Assembly: GCA_035764005.1 (NCBI GenBank)
Contig: DASTZZ010000069.1
Coordinates: 124,001 to 188,000 of the forward strand
Origin: Terriglobales bacterium
GTDB taxonomy: Bacteria; Acidobacteriota; Terriglobia; Terriglobales; Acidobacteriaceae
Reading direction: 5' to 3'
Length of the DNA stretch: 64,000 bases
A model generated the notes under the pieces. The model searched no databases and was not told the DNA's origin. It saw only the letters and a list, made by a program, of their open reading frames with translations. This document shows positions 5,157 through 16,805 of the stretch, in pieces. Position 1 is the first letter of the stretch. Each line of letters begins with the position of its first letter. The position numbers and the translations under genes were made by a program.

Positions 5157-5969
5157 TCATGCTTCGTATACCGACGTGGCTAGTCGTTTGAATCCGTGGT
5201 CGATGGCAATAATGTCCAGATAAATTGAAGTCCATTCCGTCAGGAAAAAATCATCGCTGGTTCCGGCAAAGGTCTTGAGATAGCCACCGCAAGATTCGCA
5301 GTGATCAATCCGAAGGCCCTCCTCTCCTTCGATTGTCAAAATTCCTAGCTTTCGCTCCTCATTGTTTTCACAGAAGGGACATCCAGTACGCCGGTACAAC
5401 CAGCGAGTACTGCAGCGACCGCAGCAAAGAAAACGTTGTCGGACGAGATCGCGGCCGGCGAGCTGAGCCAGAGTGGGGGCGGAGCCGCATGTTGGGCAAT
5501 AGCTGCGAAGCCATTTCTCCTCCTCTCGCCACTTGGCGAACGCGTCGATCACGGGATGTATGTAACGAGCTACAGCATTCCAACCTATGTAACGCAACAA
5601 TCCGGGAGAGCGGATTGGGAAGCCGACATCATGCAGCAACCAGGTCAGAATGCGATGATGGGTATCCGCATCACAGCCCAATTCGGCATTCAGGGCTTTG
5701 CTCTCGTCGGCCAGCTTTCCCGGTAAGGGCATTGAGGCCAGCCTCTCAACGGTTTCCCGAACCATACGCCCCACTGCTCCAAGATCCAGGGCCAAGCTGG
5801 TACTCAAGACCAGCGGTATGCCCAAACGAAAGTCTTCTACGTAGTTCTCCCAGATTGGGACGGAGGTGCAGACACAGCCAATTTCGGCTGCGGCACTGTT
5901 AACTTGTGCATGAACCTGCGCAAGGGGTTTCAGATAAGGATGTCTCGCCAGCCAAACATCTTGAGTCAT
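5157..5969 (-). CDS. fdhE: formate dehydrogenase accessory protein FdhE
   Basis: Cytoplasmic rubredoxin-like factor (270 aa) needed for assembly or activation of respiratory formate dehydrogenases before Tat export. Four CxxC pairs are visible (YCPTCGS, CCGRCST, CPFCENN, CESCGGY), the metal-binding pattern of FdhE. The start at 5969 makes a 4-base ATGA overlap with the stop of the upstream fused subunit gene, which indicates translational coupling. The longer frame from 6074 would add 35 residues encoded inside the neighbour and is rejected. It is the last gene of the fdh operon and is convergent with the kinase ending at 5043. Confidence 0.93.
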   Translation of the reverse strand: MTQDVWLARHPYLKPLAQVHAQVNSAAAEIGCVCTSVPIWENYVEDFRLGIPLVLSTSLALDLGAVGRMVRETVERLASMPLPGKLADESKALNAELGCDADTHHRILTWLLHDVGFPIRSPGLLRYIGWNAVARYIHPVIDAFAKWREEEKWLRSYCPTCGSAPTLAQLAGRDLVRQRFLCCGRCSTRWLYRRTGCPFCENNEERKLGILTIEGEEGLRIDHCESCGGYLKTFAGTSDDFFLTEWTSIYLDIIAIDHGFKRLATSVYEA

Positions 5970-8167
5970 ACCGCGGCCCGCTGTGATTCTTGCTTGGGAA
6001 GGAGCGGCATAAATCGGGCTACAAGTGCAAACAGGAAAATGGCTGCAGCGATAAGACCGACTGAAATGCCCCATTCGAAAATGGTTGGGAAGTAGGATTC
6101 TGGCGCGTTCTGAGGCATTGAGCCTTTCAAGTTCATAGCAAAGAGAACGACGTTCACGCGATTGAAAATGACTCCCGCGGTAGTCAAAAGTGTCGCAACA
6201 AATAGCACTGGAGGGCGAATTCGGAAGGAAAGAGGGGCAAGTAAGATCAAAGGAACGATACCACCCAGCGCAATTTCGACTGTAAAGAGTGCGCCGATTT
6301 TCCCCGAAAACACCCCAGGTAACTGGCCGCGTATCGCCATGTCAGCGAGGCGAAAACCCAGGTAGACAAAGAGCGACCAAAAGGTGATCTTGCCCATTGC
6401 TTGCAGTTGCGCAATTCGGAGCCGCCGATTCCATGCCTTCGCGATCCACATTTCGATCAGGATCACGAGGGCAGTGCCAGCGGCCACTGATGAGAGGAAA
6501 AATGAAATGGGCATCGCCGGTGACCACCATTGCGGCGCAACCTTATCCGGCATCAGCAAGAACAATGAGCCGAGCGAGCTTTGGTGCATTGTGGAAAGGG
6601 TTACTGCTGCGATGGCCAGCATGATGGGCTCAGGCTTCTTCTCTTTGGCTCTGAATGCCCAGGCTAGTAAAGCGAAAATGACGGCTGTTACTGTGGCATA
6701 GATAAGACTGCGAGAAAGCAAATAGACGAACAGCGTGAGTGCGAAAGCGACATATGCTCCAGACCATCTACGCCACGCGTGCAGGGCTCTGTGCAGTCCC
6801 CATCGCTCAAAGGGAACGGGTAAAAACTCGAGAAGAAGTATCGTCACGTAGAGCCCAACACACCATGACACTTCGAACATCGCCGAATGATCGGGAGCTT
6901 GCAGAGCAAGTTGATAGGAATTCCAGGGCAGGCCAAGATCGGCGATCAAGGTGACCATTACAAATGAATAACTGAGTAGTCCCATGAGAACTGCGGAACG
7001 CGCCATGGAATAGAGATCTTTCCGCTGGAAGATATAAATAAATCCAGCAGTGGCGAATGCGCCTGCTGCAATCGCAATCCATACCAGGTCGAAAAGAATC
7101 CACAGTCCCCAGGGATAGGTATTTGAAAGGTTCGTGCTGCCGCCCAACCCGAGGGCGAACCTCGCAATCAACGAAATAACACCGAAGGCCATGAGCACTA
7201 TGAGCGTCCAATTAAATGGTGTAAGCAATTTGTGCCGCAGGACGTCGAACTCTACGTGACCACCATGATCAGAGGAATCGGTCATGAGACCTTTATCGCC
7301 TGCGACGGCGGGTATTCGACGCTTCAAGAATGCATAGATGCTGCCGAGAATAGCGCCTAAACCCATAACCGCAGGAGGAACGGCGCCTAGAGCCAACTTG
7401 GAAAATGCTGGATACGGGCGGCTGTCTAACTCAGGAAAACCGAGCTTCGCGAACGGCACCGATGATAGATAGAGGACACTTGTGCCCCCAGCTTCTTTTT
7501 CTCCATAAATGTGATCGACGTATTTCTCTGGATGAGCAGAGATTCGATTATGAGCTTCCTTGAGCATCTCTTCCCGGTCGCCGAACCGCAAAGCGTCAGC
7601 TGGACACGCTTTGACGCAGGCCGGCACGACCACCTTTTCGAGAAACTGCTTGCTTTCCTGCTCGGTTATTGCATTCCCATTTCGGCTCGAAGCCGCAGGC
7701 TGATCCGCTCGATCCGCGCAGTGAGTACATTTCTGGATCTTTGGCGCAAGTGAGTCCCATTCCGCTTGTGGTACGCCCCATGGACATGCCCAAACACAGT
7801 ACCGGCAGCCAATGCATTTGCTCGCATCATAAGTAACCGGACCGTCGGCTTGCCTCGTTAACGCAGTAGTCGGACAAGCCGAAGCACATGCCGGCTCCAG
7901 GCAATGCAGGCAGCGACGCATGCTGAAAACGTAATTCAGTCCTCCCGGGGCATTCTCGTTGGGAATTTCGTGGGAAGTGATGAGCGTAAGGGTATTTGCG
8001 CTGAGTGTGATTGGATTCTGAATACCCAAATTGGGCTGCAACTCGGTTTCTTCGCCTTCCCGATCGTTCCATTGTTTGCACGCAACTTGACAGGCGCGGC
8101 ATCCAATGCACTTAGTGACGTCAACCAAAGTAGTCTTAACAGGTAGTGTTGCTGCGGACGCGCTCAC
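5966..8167 (-). CDS. fused formate dehydrogenase FeS (beta) and NrfD-type membrane (gamma) subunit
   Basis: A 733-aa fusion of two electron-transfer subunits. Residues about 1-240 are an FdnH/HybA-like ferredoxin with four cysteine clusters (CIGCRACQVAC, CLHCLEPACASAC, CIGCRYCVWAC, and CTHC with a later CVKAC), enough for four [4Fe-4S] centres. From about residue 260 onward the protein is an NrfD/HybB-like membrane domain with eight or more hydrophobic helices. It would take electrons from the catalytic subunit and reduce quinone in the membrane. The GTG start overlaps the fdhA stop as GTGA. In E. coli the two parts are separate genes and the gamma subunit is cytochrome b; here the gamma part is NrfD-like, so no haem b is expected. 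Confidence 0.92.
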   Translation of the reverse strand: MSASAATLPVKTTLVDVTKCIGCRACQVACKQWNDREGEETELQPNLGIQNPITLSANTLTLITSHEIPNENAPGGLNYVFSMRRCLHCLEPACASACPTTALTRQADGPVTYDASKCIGCRYCVWACPWGVPQAEWDSLAPKIQKCTHCADRADQPAASSRNGNAITEQESKQFLEKVVVPACVKACPADALRFGDREEMLKEAHNRISAHPEKYVDHIYGEKEAGGTSVLYLSSVPFAKLGFPELDSRPYPAFSKLALGAVPPAVMGLGAILGSIYAFLKRRIPAVAGDKGLMTDSSDHGGHVEFDVLRHKLLTPFNWTLIVLMAFGVISLIARFALGLGGSTNLSNTYPWGLWILFDLVWIAIAAGAFATAGFIYIFQRKDLYSMARSAVLMGLLSYSFVMVTLIADLGLPWNSYQLALQAPDHSAMFEVSWCVGLYVTILLLEFLPVPFERWGLHRALHAWRRWSGAYVAFALTLFVYLLSRSLIYATVTAVIFALLAWAFRAKEKKPEPIMLAIAAVTLSTMHQSSLGSLFLLMPDKVAPQWWSPAMPISFFLSSVAAGTALVILIEMWIAKAWNRRLRIAQLQAMGKITFWSLFVYLGFRLADMAIRGQLPGVFSGKIGALFTVEIALGGIVPLILLAPLSFRIRPPVLFVATLLTTAGVIFNRVNVVLFAMNLKGSMPQNAPESYFPTIFEWGISVGLIAAAIFLFALVARFMPLLPKQESQRAAV

Positions 8168-11100
8168 GACTTTCTCCCTCTCGGTGCGAATGCCGCCGGT
8201 ACCGGATCATGCAGCTTCACCACGTTTACCAGACACGCCTTCGTTTCTTGCGTCCCAGCGCCAGGGTCCACGGCATCAATCGTGAGGTGGTTGACGCTTG
8301 GTCCGCTGGACAAGCCTGCGTATCCCCAGTTGTACGGCATCCAAACGATCGTCACCTCACGCCCATCTACATGCAGCGTTTTCATTCTGGGTGTGACGAC
8401 GGCTTTTACGGTAAGTTCGCCCCGCGCCGAAGATACTCTTACTAAGCTCCCCGTCTTCACCTCTAACTTTCGAGCAAGGCTCTCTGGCATTTCCAGCACG
8501 GGTTCCGGGATGAGCTCGTTCAGCCATGGAATATTGCGCGTCGAAGAACCTCCGCACCAGTGTTCCGCGACAGTTGAAGTCATCAGTACATAAGGAAACT
8601 CTTCTACTCTTCCTATTGGCTGATGTGACTCTACTCGCGGATATTTGAGCAGCGGGTTGTGCTTCACCTGTGGATGCAAGACGTTTTCCACGGGGCTCTC
8701 GACCGGCTCGTACATTTCCGGCAGTGGACCGTCTTTGGGAACGTAGGCCACATCCCGCGGAAGCTGCGGATTTTTCGGATCGGGATCCTGATAGACGGCA
8801 GCAAAGAGCCGGCCGACGCCTTCGGCATTCTGGTGGAACGCTCGACGGCCGTTCGGCGTGTTTGGTCCGTCGGTCACACTTGGGACGTCTGGGATATCGT
8901 GTCCTGTCCAGCGCTTTTCTTTCTCATCCCACCAAACAATAGGCTGGGAACCCGGATACGGCTTCCCGTTTCGGTCACATGACGCACGGTTGTACAGAAT
9001 GCGCATGTTGTTCGGCCAGGTCCATCCGAAATTTGGGTAGAGGCCAAGACCTCCGGGATCCGTTTCAGAGTCCCGGCGTCTGGAGAGATTTACGCCGCCG
9101 GCAAACACTCCCGCGTAGATCCAGGCGCCGGAAGCTGTCGAGCCATCGGGTTGCAAGTCGGCGACTTTGGTAACGAGATCACCACTCTTAACATTTCCAC
9201 TCGGAAGATCGTGCAGAGCGTGTCCGTTGATTTCGCGCAGCACATCTTCGGCCGTGGTGTAGCTCCAGGAAGCCTTTTGAATGATCTCGTCTTTCGGGTC
9301 TGGTGAGTCCTTAACCAATTCGCGTACTCGCCGGAAAATCAAATCGACGATCTCGCCATCTGGTTTTGCTTCGCCAGGAGGCTTCACAGCCGCGTGCCTC
9401 CACTGCACCATGCCTCCCGAATTGGTAATGGTTCCGTTTTTCTCCATGAAGAAGGCAGCCGGCAGCAACATCACTTCGGTCGCGATCGACTTCGGGTCCA
9501 CACCCGGACGGCGCCAGAACGTAGCCGTTTCCGTTTCCCAGATCTCTTGGACCACAAGCATTTCGAGCTTCGACATTGCCGCGAACGTCAAATTCAAATT
9601 GGGCATGGTCACCGCGGGATTCTGTCCGACGATCCACAGCAGCTTCATATTCCCAGCGAGAGCACTCTCGAAGATCGACATCGTTCCATAGTCTTTTGCA
9701 GCGCTTCGCTTGGGAAGCCAGGCATAGGCGAAATCGTTCTCAGGAGTGGCGGCATCTCCATAGAAGGCTTTCAGTGTATTGACCAGGAACTTGCGGTCTC
9801 CTGTCCCGTTTCTCTTCGTGTACTCCGTAAGTGTAGGTTCGGTATGTGCCGGGTAATTCAGATAGCCTGGCATGTAGTTGTTCAGCACTCCCATGTCGCA
9901 TGCGCCCTGTACGTTCGGCTCGCCGCGCAAAGCATTCACACCGCCTCCAGGCTTGCCGACATTGCCAAGCAGGAGCTGCAATATCGTGAATCCGCGGATT
10001 CCCTGTACCCCAGTTGTGTGCTGAGTCATTCCAAGTGCGTACAGGATCGACCCGGGCCGGTTCCTGGCCATCATTTCCGCGATCTGCTGGATCTGCTCCG
10101 CCGGAATCCCAGTGATGCGCTCTCCCATTTCGGGCGTGTATCGCGAGACAAACTTCTTCAGGTGTGTGAAGACGCAGCGCGGATCATCCAGCGTAGTGGC
10201 GACGCGCGGCTTGCCGCTTGAGTCCAGTTGATAGCCCCATGTCTCTGTCGCGTACTTATGCTTTTCATGGTCGAATCCGCTGAACAGTCCGTCTTTGAAG
10301 TCAAAGCCCGCGTGTCCGAGGAACAGAGCATTCGTGTGGGTTTTAACGTAATCCTCGTCGTACAGTTTCTGAACGAGAACGTGGTTGATCATGGTGTTAA
10401 GAAACGCGGCATCTGTACCTGGGCGGATATGTGCGTAAATATCGGCCGTTGCCGATGTACGGGTGAATCGAGGATCAACGTGGATAATCTTTGCCCCATT
10501 TTCCTGAGCCTTCCGAATCCACTTGAAGGCCATAGGATGGTTCTCCGCGACATTGCTTCCTTCCACCAGAATGGTTTTGCAATGCTGGAGATCAATCCAG
10601 TGGTTGGTCATTGCCCCTCGTCCGAACGCAGCTCCCAGACCGGGAACGGTAGGACTGTGTCAAAGTCGCGCCTGATGCTCAACGAATGCGGTCCCCAGAA
10701 GACGCGCCGCTTTCTGAAAGAGGTAGCACTCCTCGTTGGTGTTCTGAGCGCCTCCCATAAACGCAATCGCATCTGTCCGATTGACTGGAACTTCAGCGTC
10801 GCCCAGCTTCTCAGTGGCAATCCATGTGGCATCCCGAGTCGTGCGGATTTTCCGGGCGACCTTCTCCACGGCATCTTCCCAACTGATCTCCACCCAATGA
10901 TCGCTTCCGGGCGCACGGTAGCGCGGCTTTGCCAGTCGCTTCGGCGAGCTGTGTGTCGCGAACATCGAAACACCCTTCACGCATAGTGACCCACGGTTCA
11001 CGATGTGGTCGTAATCACCTTCCATGGCAATCAGCTTCCCATCGCGCACCGCGGCGATCATGCCGCAGCCACAGGAACAAAAGTTGCAGGATGTCGTGAA

Positions 11101-11304
11101 TTCGTTTACGTTCGCGAGCTTTAGCTTCTTGGTGGCGGCCCTTACGGAAGGTACGTCGATAATGCTATCGAGCGCGAGGCCGACACTACTACCGATCGCT
11201 AACTTCAGCAGGTCCCTGCGGTTGAATCTTCTCGGACTCTGAGCGCACGATTGCTCCAGGTCTTTCGGATTGCTTTCCCTCGATACTTTATTCGGCGAAT
11301 CCAT
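8164..11304 (-). CDS. fdhA: periplasmic formate dehydrogenase catalytic subunit, selenoprotein (in-frame UGA = Sec215)
   Basis: Molybdenum or tungsten bis-MGD formate dehydrogenase (FdnG-like), oxidising formate to CO2. A Tat signal (NRRDLLK, residues 28-34) predicts folded export. The [4Fe-4S] cysteines are C73, C76 and C80, with a fourth in GSLCVKG. The frame is interrupted by one TGA (10660-10662) in the context VEHQARL-TGA-HSPTV, exactly where FdnG carries selenocysteine before HGPTV. The protein resumes in frame to give about 1046 aa, close to FdnG (1016). A SECIS-type hairpin follows the TGA. The start at 11304 is chosen over 11355 because the predicted promoter -10 box lies at 11342-11347. 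It must not be annotated as two genes or a pseudogene. Confidence 0.95.
10632..10662 (-). promoter_or_regulatory. UGA selenocysteine codon and bacterial SECIS hairpin of fdhA
   Basis: On the minus strand the TGA (10660-10662) is followed 13 bases later by TTCCC-GGTCT-GGGAG (10632-10646): a five-base-pair stem closing the loop GGTCT. The E. coli fdhF SECIS, read by SelB, has the same GGUCU loop at the same distance from its UGA. The site lies within coding sequence. No selA, selB, selC or selD is present in this window. Confidence 0.88.
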
Positions 11305-11370
11305 GAGCGTTTGTATGCTTCCAGCGAGATTAGCCACAGCAAAAGTAGTGCACATTTTCCGCGAATAAGC

Positions 11371-11387
11371 CTGTCATTCATGCCAGT
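11371..11387. promoter_or_regulatory. symmetric dyad operator between the divergent fdh and cytochrome operons
   Basis: CTGTCA-TTCA-TGCCAGT, a full match to the recurrent dyad. Rightward, TAAACT (11410-11415) begins 29 bases after the first T of TGCCAGT. Leftward, TACTTT (11342-11347 on the minus strand) begins 29 bases after the first T of TGACAG. One bound dimer could therefore activate both promoters. Predicted leaders are about 115 nt for the cytochrome operon and about 31 nt for fdhA. Confidence 0.65.
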
Positions 11388-11535
11388 GTCAGGTCGCAAT
11401 TTAGCTTCCTAAACTCTTCATCAATTTCCGCGCAAAGCTATTTATACGTTTGCGTGCAAAGAGTACACGCCATTGCGGTGGCGGCCAGAGTGAGGAGTGA
11501 GACGAACCATTACAAAGCGCAATTGGAGAATCCTA

Positions 11536-11829
11536 ATGAAATTCAAAAGTGCGGTTGTCTGTGCATTGCTTCTAGGCGTATCTGCGGTCTCATGGGGAGC
11601 AAATGATGGAGCGACACTCTACAAGAAAAAATGTGCCTCGTGCCATGGTGCGAGTGGAGAAGGCAAATCTGGGCCCGCGCTGAAGGGAACGCAATTAGAT
11701 CAGGACCAGATCGTGCAACAGATAACCAAGGGTAAGCCGGACAGCAAACCTCCTCACAAAAAGGGATTATCGGGAATCAGCGAGGAACACGCCAAAGCCA
11801 TTGCCGAGTACATAAAGGCTTTGCAGTAG
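11536..11829 (+). CDS. small periplasmic mono-haem cytochrome c
   Basis: A 97-aa class I cytochrome c with a cleavable signal (MKFKSAVVCALLLGVSAVSWG). One CxxCH haem site (CASCHG) lies about 15 residues into the mature protein. The C-terminal helix (EEHAKAIAEYIKAL) is typical, but the usual Met ligand is not obvious in KGLSGIS, so the sixth ligand is uncertain. The ATG at 11536 has GGAG 8 bases upstream; a longer frame from 11497 has no binding site and lacks a clean signal start. First gene of the cytochrome-porin operon, it probably shuttles electrons in the periplasm. Confidence 0.9.
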   Translation: MKFKSAVVCALLLGVSAVSWGANDGATLYKKKCASCHGASGEGKSGPALKGTQLDQDQIVQQITKGKPDSKPPHKKGLSGISEEHAKAIAEYIKALQ

Positions 11830-11871
11830 AGTCACAAGCGCCCGCGCGTTTACAGAAGAAGGATTGATGCG

Positions 11872-12789
11872 GTGAAGGTGAGTAGATGGGCCATAGGTTT
11901 GCCAGACTTACTTCTGGCCGTAATCTGTTTGCTTCTTGCCGGACCGGTTTCCGGAGCCAGTCCGCAAGAGCAGACCAGCGAGCCCACCGGAAAACAGGTT
12001 GCTGAGTATCGAGGCTCAGAAACCTGCAAGACGTGTCACGAAGATCTATACAAGCAAAACTTCGAAAATACTCCACATTTCAAAACGACTCTTGCCGGTG
12101 GACACGGTTGCGAATCTTGTCACGGTCCCGGATCCGAACACATCGATGCGGGCGGCGATGTCACGAAAATCGTCAACTTTAAGACGCTCTCGCGAAAAGA
12201 GGTAAATGCCCGCTGCTTAAGCTGTCATGCCGACAGCCACGAGCAACGACATTTCTCCGCTTCGGCGCATGCTAACAACGATGTCGGTTGCTTAGATTGT
12301 CATTCGCCTCACCACGCTAAACAGGCCGAAAATCTGTTGGTCGAAAAGCAGCCTCAACTTTGCTACGGATGCCATACCGCTGCCAAAGCCGATTTTCTCA
12401 AGCCCTTTCATCATCGTGTAAATGAAGGTCTGGTTCGCTGCGCCGATTGTCATAACGTCCATGGAACCACAACTCTTCGGCAAGTGAAGGTGATGGCCAA
12501 CGGAGACGCAGCCTGCGTCAGATGCCACGCAGATAAACGAGGTCCGTTCGTCTACGAGCACGTGCCCGTAAAAACAGAAGGATGTAGCAGTTGCCACATG
12601 CCGCATGGATCTACGAATGCACGTTTGTTGCGAGTGAGCCAAGTCAACCTCCAGTGCCTGCAGTGTCATACATTTCCTGCGCTGGGACCGGGGGGACCTG
12701 CGCATAACCAGGCAGCTAAATATCAGGCATGCACGATGTGTCACTCGGCAATTCACGGATCGAATGCCAGCAGTGTGTTCTTCAGGTGA
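11872..12789 (+). CDS. MtrA/DmsE-like periplasmic decaheme cytochrome c
   Basis: A 305-aa exported multihaem cytochrome with exactly ten CxxCH motifs (CKTCH, CESCH, CLSCH, CLDCH, CYGCH, CADCH, CVRCH, CSSCH, CLQCH, CTMCH) spaced evenly over residues 52 to about 295. Ten haems in about 300 residues is the signature of MtrA, PioA and DmsE, which form a wire inserted in an outer-membrane barrel. Translation starts at a GTG (11872) with AAGGA 8 bases upstream; the signal peptide ends near VSGAS. The gene after it encodes the matching barrel. Function as an outer-membrane electron conduit is inferred from haem count, length and neighbour. Confidence 0.94.
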   Translation: MKVSRWAIGLPDLLLAVICLLLAGPVSGASPQEQTSEPTGKQVAEYRGSETCKTCHEDLYKQNFENTPHFKTTLAGGHGCESCHGPGSEHIDAGGDVTKIVNFKTLSRKEVNARCLSCHADSHEQRHFSASAHANNDVGCLDCHSPHHAKQAENLLVEKQPQLCYGCHTAAKADFLKPFHHRVNEGLVRCADCHNVHGTTTLRQVKVMANGDAACVRCHADKRGPFVYEHVPVKTEGCSSCHMPHGSTNARLLRVSQVNLQCLQCHTFPALGPGGPAHNQAAKYQACTMCHSAIHGSNASSVFFR

Positions 12790-12825
12790 GAACTTGAGAA
12801 CACCGGGCCGCAAGAGAGTTAGGAC

Positions 12826-15078
12826 ATGACCTCGAATTCAAATCGGCTGGCGTTATTTCTGGCGATCGGCCTGCTCTTTCAGGTCACAGCCTTTGGACAG
12901 TCTGCAGAAAAACAGGTTGATCAAGGCGAGACGCAGCAGCAGCCAAGTGAGGGAGGGACTTATCTGGTCCATCAGGCAATCGAGTTCGGCTACCGAGGCT
13001 CTGACGTGACCGGCAGCGAGGCGATGTACAAATCCCTCGTCAACCTGCCCAGCGGCCCACGACTGCTTGACCAGACACTCTCCATGCAATCGCGCGTGCA
13101 CGATGGCGTGTTGTTCGACAATCTTTTTCTTAGCAGCCTCGGATGGGGCGGTGATCCAAACAACACACTGAGTGCCCGAGTTGATAAGGGCAACTGGTAC
13201 GACTTTCGCGGGGTTTTCCGTCGCGACCACAACGACTTTGACTATAACCTGCTCGCGAACCCATTGAATCCGTTTACCTCGAGTCCAAGCATTCCCGTTG
13301 CTTCATCCCCTCATACATTCGGGACACGCCGACGTATGACCGATCTTGACCTCACGCTCTTACCACAGTCTGTCGTGAGTTTCCATGTGGGTTACTCGCA
13401 CAATAACATGACGGGCTTTTCATTCAGCAGTGTTCACGAGGGCACTGACGCTCTGCTTGATCAACCGTGGAACACGACCGTGAACTCCTATCGCTTCGGA
13501 GCGGACCTAAAGGTTTTACCCCACACTGTGATCAGCTACGACCAGGTCTTTGATTATTACAAGGGTGACACGACGTGGAACCTTGCACAGTTCGCCTCCG
13601 CGTTCGTCCCTGCACCGCCTTCTGGAATTCCATCCACCGTGGAGCTTGGCCTTCCGATAGATACTCTCAACAAGAATCCGTGCGCTGTCGTGGGACCAGC
13701 AACGACACTCATCGATCCCACAGGTACTCTTACAAATACTCAGTGCAACGCATATTACGCGTACAATCGCTCGAATCGCACTCGCACGTCTACTCCCACT
13801 GAGCAGGTTAGCTTGCACGGCTCGTACTTCCATCGATTGGAGCTGAGCTCGTCATACTCCTACAGCTCAACCGACATGACTGCTCCCTTGAACGAATTCT
13901 TCAATGGGCTGATGCAGCGCTCGGATATTCGCCAGGAAACCGTCACCGGCCCGGCACAGGCGAATGCTATTTCTAACGTAGCCGACTTCAGCGCAACTCT
14001 GCAGCTATGGCAACATTTCCGACTAGTTGATACTTTTCGTTTCTGGGCCTACCGGATTCCGGAAGCCTTCACAGATACAACGTCTGATTGGACGTGCAAC
14101 AACCTGAATACCTGCTCGTTGGTCACTCCTATGAGTGACACCACGCCTACGAGTACGATCACGACAAATCAACTTTCGTTTAACCAGAGCTTGAAGAGAA
14201 ATCAAACTGACTTGGTCTGGGATGGATCCAAGCATTTCGGCAGCCGTATCGGCTTCCGTTATAGCGACAAAGTCTTTCATCACATCCTGGACTTCACAAC
14301 CGGTGATCAGGACCGCATCATCGTTCATGAATACACGCCCTTGTTTGGATTTTGGTTCAAACCAATGACGACGCTCCGATTCAATTTTGATTGGGAGCAT
14401 TCCAACTACGACGACGTCATCGTGAACATCGGTCCGCGCAAGGAAAATCGAGAGCGAATCCAAGCGAACTACACGATAAGGCCGTGGGCAATCGTCGGAG
14501 GCTCAATTAATCTGTGGAACGCCTCCAACGCCGACTCGCTGACGGATTATCGCGGGCACAGTCACAATTATGGATTCACTGCTTCACTGGCGCCGAAAGA
14601 AAGATTTGGGCTCGATCTCGTCTACAACTACAGCGATTATCTGCAGAGCTCCTTCGTATGTTTCAACGATGCTGACAAGTCGCTGCCCGTGGTTGCCAAT
14701 GCCGGCAGCTGCACTGCCAACGGGTTCGACGATAGCAGTAATCCCCTTCTTACTACGGGCAAGTACACAAACAACAGTCACTACGGCATGGCGTTAGTGA
14801 TGGTGAAACCAGTCCCCCGTGTAACGACGCAGTTCGGCTATGGCATTACGAGCATTGGTGGACAAGTTCCGCAGTTCAACAGTCTGCAACCATTTGGATC
14901 TTTGCAGTCTAACTATCATGAGCCTGTAATCAATGTTGCAGTCGATATCGGACATGACCTGACGGCCAAAGCAGGATGGAATTATTACCAATACGGCGAG
15001 AAATCTTTCGTGGGTCCTACGGATCCGCGCTATTTCCATGCAAATAACGCAACGCTGTCATTGCGCTGGGCGTTTTAG
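12826..15078 (+). CDS. MtrB/PioB-like outer-membrane beta-barrel partner of the decaheme cytochrome
   Basis: A 750-aa exported barrel (signal MTSNSNRLALFLAIGLLFQVTAFGQ) made of alternating aromatic/polar strands (for example RFGADLKVLPHTVISYDQVFDYY) and ending in a strand with terminal Phe (ATLSLRWAF), the sorting signal for BAM. Length, the N-terminal G-Y-R-G-S-D-V region and position right after a decaheme cytochrome fit MtrB/PioB porins, which sheath MtrA through the outer membrane. The N-terminal CxxC known from Shewanella MtrB is absent. The family call rests on context and overall pattern; sequence similarity to Shewanella MtrB is not obvious by eye. Confidence 0.82.
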   Translation: MTSNSNRLALFLAIGLLFQVTAFGQSAEKQVDQGETQQQPSEGGTYLVHQAIEFGYRGSDVTGSEAMYKSLVNLPSGPRLLDQTLSMQSRVHDGVLFDNLFLSSLGWGGDPNNTLSARVDKGNWYDFRGVFRRDHNDFDYNLLANPLNPFTSSPSIPVASSPHTFGTRRRMTDLDLTLLPQSVVSFHVGYSHNNMTGFSFSSVHEGTDALLDQPWNTTVNSYRFGADLKVLPHTVISYDQVFDYYKGDTTWNLAQFASAFVPAPPSGIPSTVELGLPIDTLNKNPCAVVGPATTLIDPTGTLTNTQCNAYYAYNRSNRTRTSTPTEQVSLHGSYFHRLELSSSYSYSSTDMTAPLNEFFNGLMQRSDIRQETVTGPAQANAISNVADFSATLQLWQHFRLVDTFRFWAYRIPEAFTDTTSDWTCNNLNTCSLVTPMSDTTPTSTITTNQLSFNQSLKRNQTDLVWDGSKHFGSRIGFRYSDKVFHHILDFTTGDQDRIIVHEYTPLFGFWFKPMTTLRFNFDWEHSNYDDVIVNIGPRKENRERIQANYTIRPWAIVGGSINLWNASNADSLTDYRGHSHNYGFTASLAPKERFGLDLVYNYSDYLQSSFVCFNDADKSLPVVANAGSCTANGFDDSSNPLLTTGKYTNNSHYGMALVMVKPVPRVTTQFGYGITSIGGQVPQFNSLQPFGSLQSNYHEPVINVAVDIGHDLTAKAGWNYYQYGEKSFVGPTDPRYFHANNATLSLRWAF

Positions 15079-15190
15079 CGGAAGATCGAGGAAGTTCAGC
15101 ATCATGTAATTCATACAGGCGATCAGGTAACTGGCCGATGCAAGTCGCGCAGGATAAATAAGCATGAAGTAGCTGCGATGGGAGGGTAGG

Positions 15191-15808
15191 GTGCCGGTTG
15201 GGTGGATCTATGCGCTACTGATTACCAGTGTTGTAGCCATTGCTCTCGTGGCGACGGCTCCTGCGATTACGCTGAGTCGTGGCGGAAAGGTTCTCGCTTT
15301 TCTTGCACTTTTCGTTCTGCCTCTGCTTTCTGCCGGACTTGGTTACAAGAACCATATGGATAGATCCAAGCAGACATCGTTCTGCCTTTCCTGCCATCTC
15401 ATGGAGCCCTACGGGCGCAGTCTCCACGTCGATGACCCTACGTGGCTGCCTGCTTCCCACTACCAGAATAATCGTGTACCCCGCGATCTGGCCTGCTATA
15501 CGTGCCATAGTGATTACGTGATGTACGGCTCTATCAAAGCAAAATGGCGGGGACTGCATCACATTTACGCTCAATATTTCGGCAATCCCCAGCCGCCGCT
15601 GCACCTCTACCATCCCTATAACAATCGCGAGTGCCTGCACTGCCATTTGGGGGCTCGCACCTTCGAAGAGGGAGTTACCCACAACGCCGACCCGCAGATC
15701 ATGGCTGATATCAAGAGCAACAAATTGTCTTGCCTATCGTCTGGGTGCCATGATCAGGTACATAACACCGAGACTTTAGGCCAGGCAAAGTATTGGAAAG
15801 GAGAATGA
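15191..15808 (+). CDS. NapC/NirT-like membrane-anchored multihaem quinol dehydrogenase
   Basis: A 205-aa protein with two N-terminal hydrophobic segments (about residues 5-27 and 32-50) and a periplasmic haem domain. Three standard motifs are visible (CLSCH, CYTCH, CLHCH) plus a fourth of the CX4CH type (CLSSGCH). The first haem region (SFCLSCHLMEPYGRSLHVDD) resembles the quinol site of NapC, NrfH and CymA. It would take electrons from menaquinol and pass them to the small and decaheme cytochromes. Two membrane segments instead of one is unusual for NapC. The GTG start has GGGAGGG just upstream. It is fourth in the cytochrome operon after a 112-base gap. Confidence 0.85.
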   Translation: MPVGWIYALLITSVVAIALVATAPAITLSRGGKVLAFLALFVLPLLSAGLGYKNHMDRSKQTSFCLSCHLMEPYGRSLHVDDPTWLPASHYQNNRVPRDLACYTCHSDYVMYGSIKAKWRGLHHIYAQYFGNPQPPLHLYHPYNNRECLHCHLGARTFEEGVTHNADPQIMADIKSNKLSCLSSGCHDQVHNTETLGQAKYWKGE

Positions 15809-15809
15809 T

Positions 15810-16061
15810 GTGGGAAATAAGGAAATCAGTATGGCTCAGCGCTTGCGAATCGCTGGCACCCTCATCGCTCTTGGACTCATTGCGGAGTTGCTGACACTTG
15901 CCTGGAACAATCCAATCAGCTTTATCGTTTTTCTCGCGATTGGCGGCTTGCTGATGTTTGCAGGAATCGTTCTTTATCTTTGGTCGGTACTATCGGACGG
16001 CCAAAGAACGCCGCATGTTTCCCATAATCAACTGGGCGCAAGAGCGACTCACTCTAACTGA
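15810..16061 (+). CDS. small two-helix membrane protein in the cytochrome operon
   Basis: An 83-aa protein with two hydrophobic helices (about residues 12-30 and 36-60) and a polar His/Arg-rich tail. It begins one base after the NapC-like stop, at a GTG behind AAGGAG; an internal ATG at 15831 behind AAGGAA is an alternative. I recognise no family. Position suggests an accessory or stabilising subunit of the quinol dehydrogenase, but this is inference only. Confidence 0.65.
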   Translation: MGNKEISMAQRLRIAGTLIALGLIAELLTLAWNNPISFIVFLAIGGLLMFAGIVLYLWSVLSDGQRTPHVSHNQLGARATHSN

Positions 16062-16472
16062 GACCTGGCCTTGGATTGCTGCATTGAGGCAAACCATTGC
16101 AGACAGCCATAGACTCGCGGATTCATGAACGAGTACTAATCACCCTACTTCGGCGATTCTTAAGATTTCGTCGGCGGTCGTGGGAATCAAAAGCCTGCGT
16201 GGGGCGAGTCCAAATGCCTTCATGAACCGAATCTATGTTTTTGTCGTGCGTTCCTCGTTGGCGCCGGCCTTCTTGATTTCGAAAGACCGCCTAACAAAGC
16301 CGAAATCTATAAAATCCGATCCCTGATTCTCGGCAGCATACTAAAATCGATTTTTCGTAATTCCAGAAGCAATGCCCCGGCCCTTCGAGCCGGAGGAACC
16401 GGCCTTGGGGTGGCTGAGGCAAAACTGAGCTGGAAGACTGGTACAATCTCTACTTTCAAAAGAGGAGCACAT
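16062..16472. other. intergenic, promoter of the repeat protein only
   Basis: About 410 bases without a convincing gene. Near the right end a TACAAT box (16442-16447) lies about 25 bases before the next start and is probably its -10 element. I see no hairpin terminator with a T-run after the cytochrome operon. Confidence 0.4.
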
Positions 16473-16805
16473 ATGAATGTTCGCGAAATTGTGAATTCGC
16501 TTGTAGTCGAGCGAAACCGAATTACCGCCGCGATTTCTGCATTACAAACTCAAAACGGAAGTGCGAGCCGCTCTGGTAGACGAGGCCCCCGTCATCTATC
16601 GGCGGAAGCACGAGCACGGATAGCGGCCGCTCAACGCCGTAGATGGGCGGCCCGAAAACACGAGGCCAGTTCTGTTTCCGGCTCCTCTTCATCTCAGGCC
16701 GGCAAGCGCGGGCCTCGCCGACTGAGCGCTGAGGCCCGGCAGAAAATCGCGGCAGCCCAAAGAGCACGATGGGCCAAACGACGCGAACAAGGCAAAAAGA
16801 AATAG
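16473..16805 (+). CDS. small basic duplicated-repeat protein, probably nucleic-acid binding
   Basis: A 110-aa Arg/Ala-rich protein. Residues 1-25 (MNVREIVNSLVVERNRITAAIS...) look like a short coiled coil. Two copies of a 27-residue unit follow, sharing G-R/K-R-G-P-R-x-LSAEARxxIAAAQRxRWAxR, the second ending in a KKK tail. The RGPR turn recalls AT-hook cores and the charge suggests DNA or RNA binding. The start at 16473 has AGAGGAG 7 bases upstream; the longer frame from 16410 lacks one. Similar small repeat proteins occur in acidobacterial genomes, but I know of no assigned function. Confidence 0.75.
   Translation: MNVREIVNSLVVERNRITAAISALQTQNGSASRSGRRGPRHLSAEARARIAAAQRRRWAARKHEASSVSGSSSSQAGKRGPRRLSAEARQKIAAAQRARWAKRREQGKKK

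Follow-up and report, generated by a model that had tools for sequence, protein, structure and literature searches.

A selenocysteine-type formate dehydrogenase operon facing an MtrAB-type conduit with a divergent MtrB-like barrel in a Terriglobales genome

Electron conduits across the outer membrane that work without an MtrC-like cytochrome are already known from the Mto and Pio systems (PMC4245776). The closest of these, alongside pioAB, is the mtoABD-cymA cluster of Sideroxydans lithotrophicus, which combines a decahaem cytochrome with an outer-membrane barrel, a monohaem cytochrome c and a tetrahaem NapC/CymA-type protein, and has no outer-surface cytochrome (PMC10654088). Other points of comparison are MtrCAB of Shewanella, in which MtrB forms a barrel of 26 strands with a helix in the loop that joins the first two of them (structure 6r2q; PMC7198977), and GSU2203 (OmcK) and GSU2204 of Geobacter sulfurreducens, whose genes are upregulated with hematite and magnetite (PMC4070692). 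Acidobacterial decahaem cytochromes have been reported in Arctic peat (PMC3669403). Here we analyse a stretch of 64,000 nucleotides (the window) from a Terriglobales bacterium (GCA_035764005.1, contig DASTZZ010000069.1, positions 124,001 to 188,000), in which an operon for a selenocysteine (Sec) formate dehydrogenase (Fdh) faces genes for an MtrAB-type conduit. We consider it about an even chance (roughly 0.5) that the locus passes electrons from formate through menaquinone, the NapC-type protein or cytochrome c or both, and MtrAB to an external acceptor without an MtrC-like cytochrome.

The source contig is 241 kb long, in a genome of 5.1 Mb that is 97.5% complete. All eight genes that an initial annotation had proposed, from FdhA to a small membrane protein, were found, with boundaries as proposed or very close to them. 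The left arm (5157–11355, minus strand) is a coupled operon of FdhA, an iron–sulphur (FeS)–NrfD fusion and FdhE; the right arm (11497–16061, plus strand) encodes a cytochrome c, a decahaem MtrA, the barrel, a tetrahaem NapC-type protein and the small membrane protein. Between fdhA and the conduit operon lies a divergent intergenic region of 141 bp (11356–11496). By composition alone, the conduit can be grouped with clusters of the mtoABD-cymA type. It departs from them in a barrel that falls outside PF11854, in a tetrahaem protein with two hydrophobic segments and CX4CH as its last motif, and in the formate dehydrogenase operon opposite. Systems of this kind are known; the divergent barrel and the uncommon formate neighbour are what differs. 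No title or abstract opening describing such a cluster was found in the literature within reach, which mostly excluded subscription papers.

The barrel and cytochromes of the conduit

The initial annotation had proposed an MtrB/PioB-like barrel at 12826–15078 (plus strand; 750 amino acids) and had set a match to MtrB/PioB profiles as the test of that proposal. By that test, run with Pfam, the proposal formally failed: the Pfam MtrB_PioB model (PF11854) gave no match to the window barrel at E 0.1 and none in the whole genome, and this counts against an MtrB-like identity. The sole NCBIfam match was weak (23 bits against a cut-off of 350) and fell on the GSU2204 family, which a 2026 review lists as MtrB/PioB-type (PMC13188914). 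When a profile of 18 window-type barrels was searched against PDB sequences, MtrB was not found, nor was anything else relevant.

At the level of predicted structure, however, the proposal held. A model built from a 67-sequence alignment (predicted local distance difference test, pLDDT, 86.4; predicted template modelling score, pTM, 0.77) contains 26 strands, counted from DSSP by treating the split strand 309–335 as single and omitting short strands within loops. Its turns are mostly tight on one side, with longer loops opposite, and the loop connecting strand 1 to strand 2 contains a short helix. Foldseek ranked MtrB (6r2q_B) first with E 6e-16, the runner-up reaching 1.6e-11, and VIA-align superposed 580 residues on 6r2q_B with Z 23.8 (next entry, 17.6) and a root-mean-square deviation of 3.6 Å, at about 11% identity over the structural alignment. 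Profile–profile comparison by hhalign of the 67 window-type barrels with 11 acidobacterial barrels of the PF11854 type gave a probability of 95%, E 3.5e-8, over 482 columns at 10% identity. The most fitting name for the window protein is a divergent MtrB-like barrel that falls outside the Pfam family in its present definition. Its Cys 612 is invariant and Cys 286, 307 and 629 are almost so; by strand order, these four residues map to two outer loops or to their margins, which makes outer disulfides possible in the modelled barrel. Unlike MtrB, which has a CXXC motif, the window barrel has none.

The barrel's partner, a decahaem cytochrome of the MtrA/DmsE/MtoA type (11872–12789, plus strand), carries ten CXXCH motifs and belongs to the DmsE/MtrA decahaem family by score (TIGR03508, 267.2 bits; cut-off 192.2). 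It is homologous to MtrA of the Shewanella complex (6r2q_A, E 5e-39) and reaches 219 bits against the GSU2203 decahaem family (cut-off 325), so that, compared with the GSU2203/GSU2204 pair, both window proteins stay below the curated cut-offs. Its single-chain predicted model was poor (pLDDT 66.7) and unfit for a fold search, which speaks against the proposed electron path.

Upstream lies a class I monohaem cytochrome c (11497–11829, plus strand; PF13442, 55 bits), the compositional counterpart of MtoD, with relatives at 54–58% upstream of MtrA in loci L076, L097 and L038. Downstream of the barrel, the tetrahaem NapC/NrfH-type protein (15191–15808, plus strand; PF03264 above cut-off), a putative quinol dehydrogenase, has three CXXCH motifs and a last motif of the form CX4CH, and two N-terminal hydrophobic segments were read from its sequence; phmmer with this protein gave no match at E 0.01. 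Its first haem motif, CXXCHxM, is of the type described for NrfH/CymA (PMC10654088). The small membrane protein (15810–16061, plus strand) travels with the tetrahaem protein: its relatives adjoin NapC in L054, L118 and L122. Just beyond the cluster, at 16410–16805, the window encodes a basic protein of 131 amino acids with the repeated unit [RK]RGPRxLSAEARxxIAAAQRxRWA.

The absence of an outer-surface cytochrome, noted initially for the cluster, extends to the whole genome as far as the MtrC/OmcA model TIGR03507 can tell (0 matches; PF22113 was not searched there). Searches with PF09699, PF14537, PF03264 and TIGR03508, family profiles that may overlook an unusual cytochrome, returned as other multihaem cytochromes of this genome a protein of tetratricopeptide repeat (TPR) type on contig C21 and two ActA-like proteins, neither of which looks like an outer-surface partner. 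The C21 protein (L002, 580–2298) has a TPR-like C-terminal part and its gene adjoins one for an Oar-like outer-membrane protein, both names being given by reading. The ActA-like proteins (alternative complex III) are encoded on C8 and C78 (L170, L169), at or near contig ends, and are near-identical where both are readable. The initial annotation was right to leave the external partner open; a conduit without MtrC is, with Mto and Pio as precedents, not unusual.

The formate dehydrogenase operon

FdhA (8164–11355, minus strand) matches TIGR01553 with 1047 bits against a cut-off of 814, and its best solved relative is the formate dehydrogenase 1h0h (1h0h_A, E 2.5e-235). It carries a twin-arginine-like signal, RRDLLK, as read from the sequence, and one in-frame TGA (10660–10662, minus strand), which we read as selenocysteine. 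The genome holds one match above cut-off each for tRNA-Sec (65 bits; cut-off 47) and SelB (381 bits; cut-off 242); weaker matches to both families, which appear in 14 of 14 control genomes, were left out of the count. An identical TGA is present in relatives. These features bear out the initial reading of a selenoprotein and identify it as an alpha subunit of the FDH-N type with Sec. Positioned 3' of the UGA (10633–10645, minus strand) is a hairpin, UCCC-GGUCU-GGGA, that may be a bacterial Sec insertion sequence (bSECIS)-like element. Similar stretches follow the UGA in the relatives compared, with GGTCT, AGTCT or AGTTT as loop; the stability of the window's hairpin is not above that of shuffled sequence (z 0.7).

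The GTG start of the second gene overlaps the FdhA stop. Its product (5966–8167, minus strand) joins a HybA/FdnH-type FeS subunit to an NrfD/HybB-type membrane subunit, with the Fer4 and NrfD Pfam domains above cut-off, 1kqf_B matched at E 3.4e-33, and HybB/HmcC-like NCBIfam matches below their cut-offs. The window enzyme thus resembles FDH-N and the Desulfovibrio Sec formate dehydrogenases (1kqf, 1h0h) in its Sec-containing FdhA and FeS subunit, and differs from FDH-N (1kqf) in its membrane part, which is an FeS-fused NrfD/HybB type and not a cytochrome b. No cytochrome b gamma subunit is encoded in the fdh operon (the search did not extend to the remainder of the genome), and a combined-term literature search on Fdh with an NrfD/HybB fusion returned no paper. 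The third gene encodes an FdhE-type maturation protein (5157–5969, minus strand; PF24859, 30.8 bits, cut-off 27), whose central domain scores above and C-terminal domain below cut-off, TIGR01562 giving 49.5 bits, far under 187.65. Judged from the ATGA overlap with the preceding stop, it probably starts at the ATG at 5969; the open reading frame was listed from 6074. A second selenoprotein FdhA of the same genome, on contig C24 (L172, 8396–11593), is about 37–39% identical to the window FdhA.

Relatives of the conduit and its link to formate

Of 200 genomes sampled from the family, 101 carry the window-type barrel, and these span 46 of 79 genera. In the named collection, its relatives are mostly metagenome-assembled genomes of Acidobacteriota of the Terriglobia type, among them Angelo 'gp1' and Candidatus Sulfotelmatobacter; of the records for the 79 named loci, that of L121 is labelled Bacillota and that of L119 only 'bacterium'. 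The pairing with MtrA is conserved: a match of more than 100 bits adjoins the barrel in 75 of these 79 loci. In L088, L121, L150 and L151, the barrel frame begins at most 2 bases from a contig edge. Canonical PF11854 barrels (L201–L216) occur in 55 of 199 sampled genomes of the phylum, 52 of them outside the window's family and 3 inside, a distribution that indicates two barrel branches in the phylum.

Within about 9 kb in the 79 loci, NapC-type proteins with 6–7 haems occur in 25, monohaem cytochromes in 24, and neighbours with 9–19 haems, mostly with predicted membrane segments, in 12. A Crp/Fnr-type regulator was recognised near the conduit in 17 of the 79 loci by sequence reading; none is among the window's eight genes. 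We considered whether the multihaem neighbours are outer-surface cytochromes and rejected this for most, since hydrophobic segments, cytochrome b561 domains and an almost complete lack of lipoboxes speak for inner-membrane anchoring; lipobox candidates appeared in 2 of the 134 neighbour entries displayed, many of which are MtrA. The profile scan covered part of the neighbour cytochromes. It included a 19-haem neighbour of the MtrA–barrel pair in L051 (10968–13460; same record as L098), which matches PF22113 with 53.7 bits (cut-off 30), so that some relatives may have an MtrC-like partner; this goes against a conduit free of MtrC throughout the branch. A crude test found no membrane segment in this protein, and its C-terminal part is hydrophobic by eye. 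A similar 19-haem protein is present in L047, and no C-terminal anchor was seen in the multihaem neighbours of L116 and L138. In L127 (1059–3178), two adjacent six-haem proteins of the c7/c3 type, one with a possible lipobox, are encoded about 8–9 kb before the MtrA–barrel pair and could be outer-surface candidates.

The coupling to formate proposed by the initial annotation fared less evenly. It is intact in the window, and its parts recur in overlapping combinations in a few relatives. In L076, whose barrel is the closest among the named relatives (70%), an FdhA (76% over residues 44–193) faces an intact conduit of hexahaem protein, cytochrome c, MtrA and barrel; the FdhA itself is broken there. 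This remnant (1–945) is interrupted near residue 196 and has an extra in-frame TGA within the cysteine motif for FeS binding. It was found by tblastn, and the idea that the Fdh adjacency is unique to this genome was dropped. The contig of L097 starts in the end of the hexahaem protein and continues with cytochrome c, MtrA and barrel. In G107/AA133 and G032 (L173, L177), window-type Fdh faces a hexahaem quinol dehydrogenase that is 77% and 64% identical, respectively, to that of L076; the conduit of G107/AA133 lies on another contig. Joining the end of the Fdh–hexahaem contig of AA133 (G107/G203) to an MtrA–barrel contig was rejected, as no upstream cytochrome c matched and the pair is more divergent.

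Several observations weigh against the coupling. FdhA lies near the conduit in one of the 79 named loci (L076) and in none of the 20 extended loci L038–L057; sequence was available for at least 3 kb before MtrA in 52 of the 79, for 5 kb in 45, and for 5 kb after the barrel in 57. In G032, a single-contig genome, window-type Fdh and conduit are far apart. Conduits in relatives thus hardly ever have Fdh beside them, and Fdh of the window type is also found apart from the conduit: in G046, G132 and G152 (64%) it has no multihaem neighbours within the 20-kb stretches read, and in bog_207 (G219) no conduit match was found on the stretches read of two contigs. The formate link is therefore confined to a few genomes and is only loosely kept in them.

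The same observations feed a rival explanation, that Fdh and conduit have independent functions and became neighbours through horizontal transfer and rearrangement, with formate simply feeding the general menaquinone pool. The near absence of the adjacency in relatives, the unlinked arrangement in G032, the Fdh without multihaem neighbours and the mosaic identities of the locus all favour it. Against it stands the recurrence of window-type Fdh, the hexahaem protein and the cytochrome c–MtrA–barrel block in overlapping combinations in L076, L097, L173 and L177, genomes that are related or linked by transfer and whose overlap may owe something to chance. On balance we regard independence as improbable, though deserving serious attention.

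The locus looks mosaic by sequence identity, its FdhA resembling that of another genus and its NapC that of its own. The window FdhA is 81–85% identical to that of AA133, which belongs to another genus, over most of its length (the AA133 gene is in shifted pieces, with 81–85% over residues 146–1063 and 51% over residues 39–180), and the best FdhA of the other five same-genus genomes is 44% identical to the window type. By comparison, the second Sec-FdhA on C24 is 84–86% identical to those of three genus mates and 68% to that of AA133. That the window FdhA is closer to AA133 than the second FdhA is suggests that the Fdh was acquired horizontally, with this one gene as calibrator. The tetrahaem protein shares 81% identity with its counterpart in a same-genus genome (G054, locus L054), where it follows a quite different MtrA (54%) and barrel (36%). 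The cytochrome c–MtrA–barrel block is closest to other genera (MtrA 70–80% and barrel 66–70% in L076, L097 and L102), and a tree of MtrA places the window together with L038, L102, L076 and L097 at a support of 97/73, short of the strict threshold. Because these identities are not clearly above the 68% calibrator, the case for transfer of the conduit rests on its absence from sampled genus mates: a barrel match is absent in four of the other five same-genus genomes.

Electron flow and its direction

In the proposed path from formate to the cell exterior, a periplasmic Sec formate dehydrogenase would oxidise formate and the FeS–NrfD membrane subunit would hand the electrons to menaquinone. The tetrahaem NapC-type protein, the monohaem cytochrome c or both may then carry them from menaquinol to the decahaem MtrA-type cytochrome, which is expected to sit inside the 26-strand MtrB-like barrel. 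From there, electrons would pass directly, with no cytochrome of the MtrC type in between, to an acceptor outside the cell that may be soluble, chelated or humic, or to iron. The identities of the parts have good support; their assembly into a complex, the coupling to formate and the direction of flow are proposed. MtrAB alone is able to move electrons outward (PMC4245776, PMC7198977).

Flow in the opposite direction has to be weighed as well, since the gene make-up equals that of a cluster for Fe(II) oxidation. If the conduit worked inward, like those of mtoABD-cymA or pio, MtrAB would oxidise Fe(II) or some other reductant outside the cell, and the electrons would travel by way of cytochrome c and the tetrahaem protein to an oxidase or to quinone. 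Fdh would then be an independent source of electrons for this quinone pool. The combination of decahaem protein, barrel, monohaem cytochrome c and tetrahaem CymA-type protein is that of the Sideroxydans mto cluster, and PioA/MtoA relatives have been reported in Acidobacteriia (both PMC10654088); the lack of MtrC is likewise shared with Mto and Pio (PMC4245776). An adjoining formate dehydrogenase, on the other hand, usually supplies electrons and does not accept them, and the pair in relatives is accompanied by multihaem–cytochrome b561 and NapC-type proteins. Such proteins are usually read as quinol oxidising, although either direction is possible. We therefore consider the inward conduit a doubtful alternative to outward flow from formate, about as doubtful as independence of the two arms.

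Outward formate respiration could be part of something broader: a horizontally mobile unit of soil Acidobacteriota, made of a Sec-Fdh and an MtrC-free conduit, with a large MtrB-like branch invisible to profiles and a cysteine-stabilised outer face, that passes electrons straight from the decahaem cytochrome to humics, chelated iron or another cell. This extension is tentative, and we think it unlikely as a whole.

As the window barrel is unmatched by PF11854 and only 3 of the 55 matching genomes of the phylum belong to this family, surveys for extracellular electron transfer will largely overlook the branch when they depend on this model. The branch overlooked concerns soil and peat bacteria, and roughly half of the family's genomes in the sample carry it. 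Where it is present, the formate link provides a testable electron donor, and formate could drive electron exchange between these bacteria and their surroundings.

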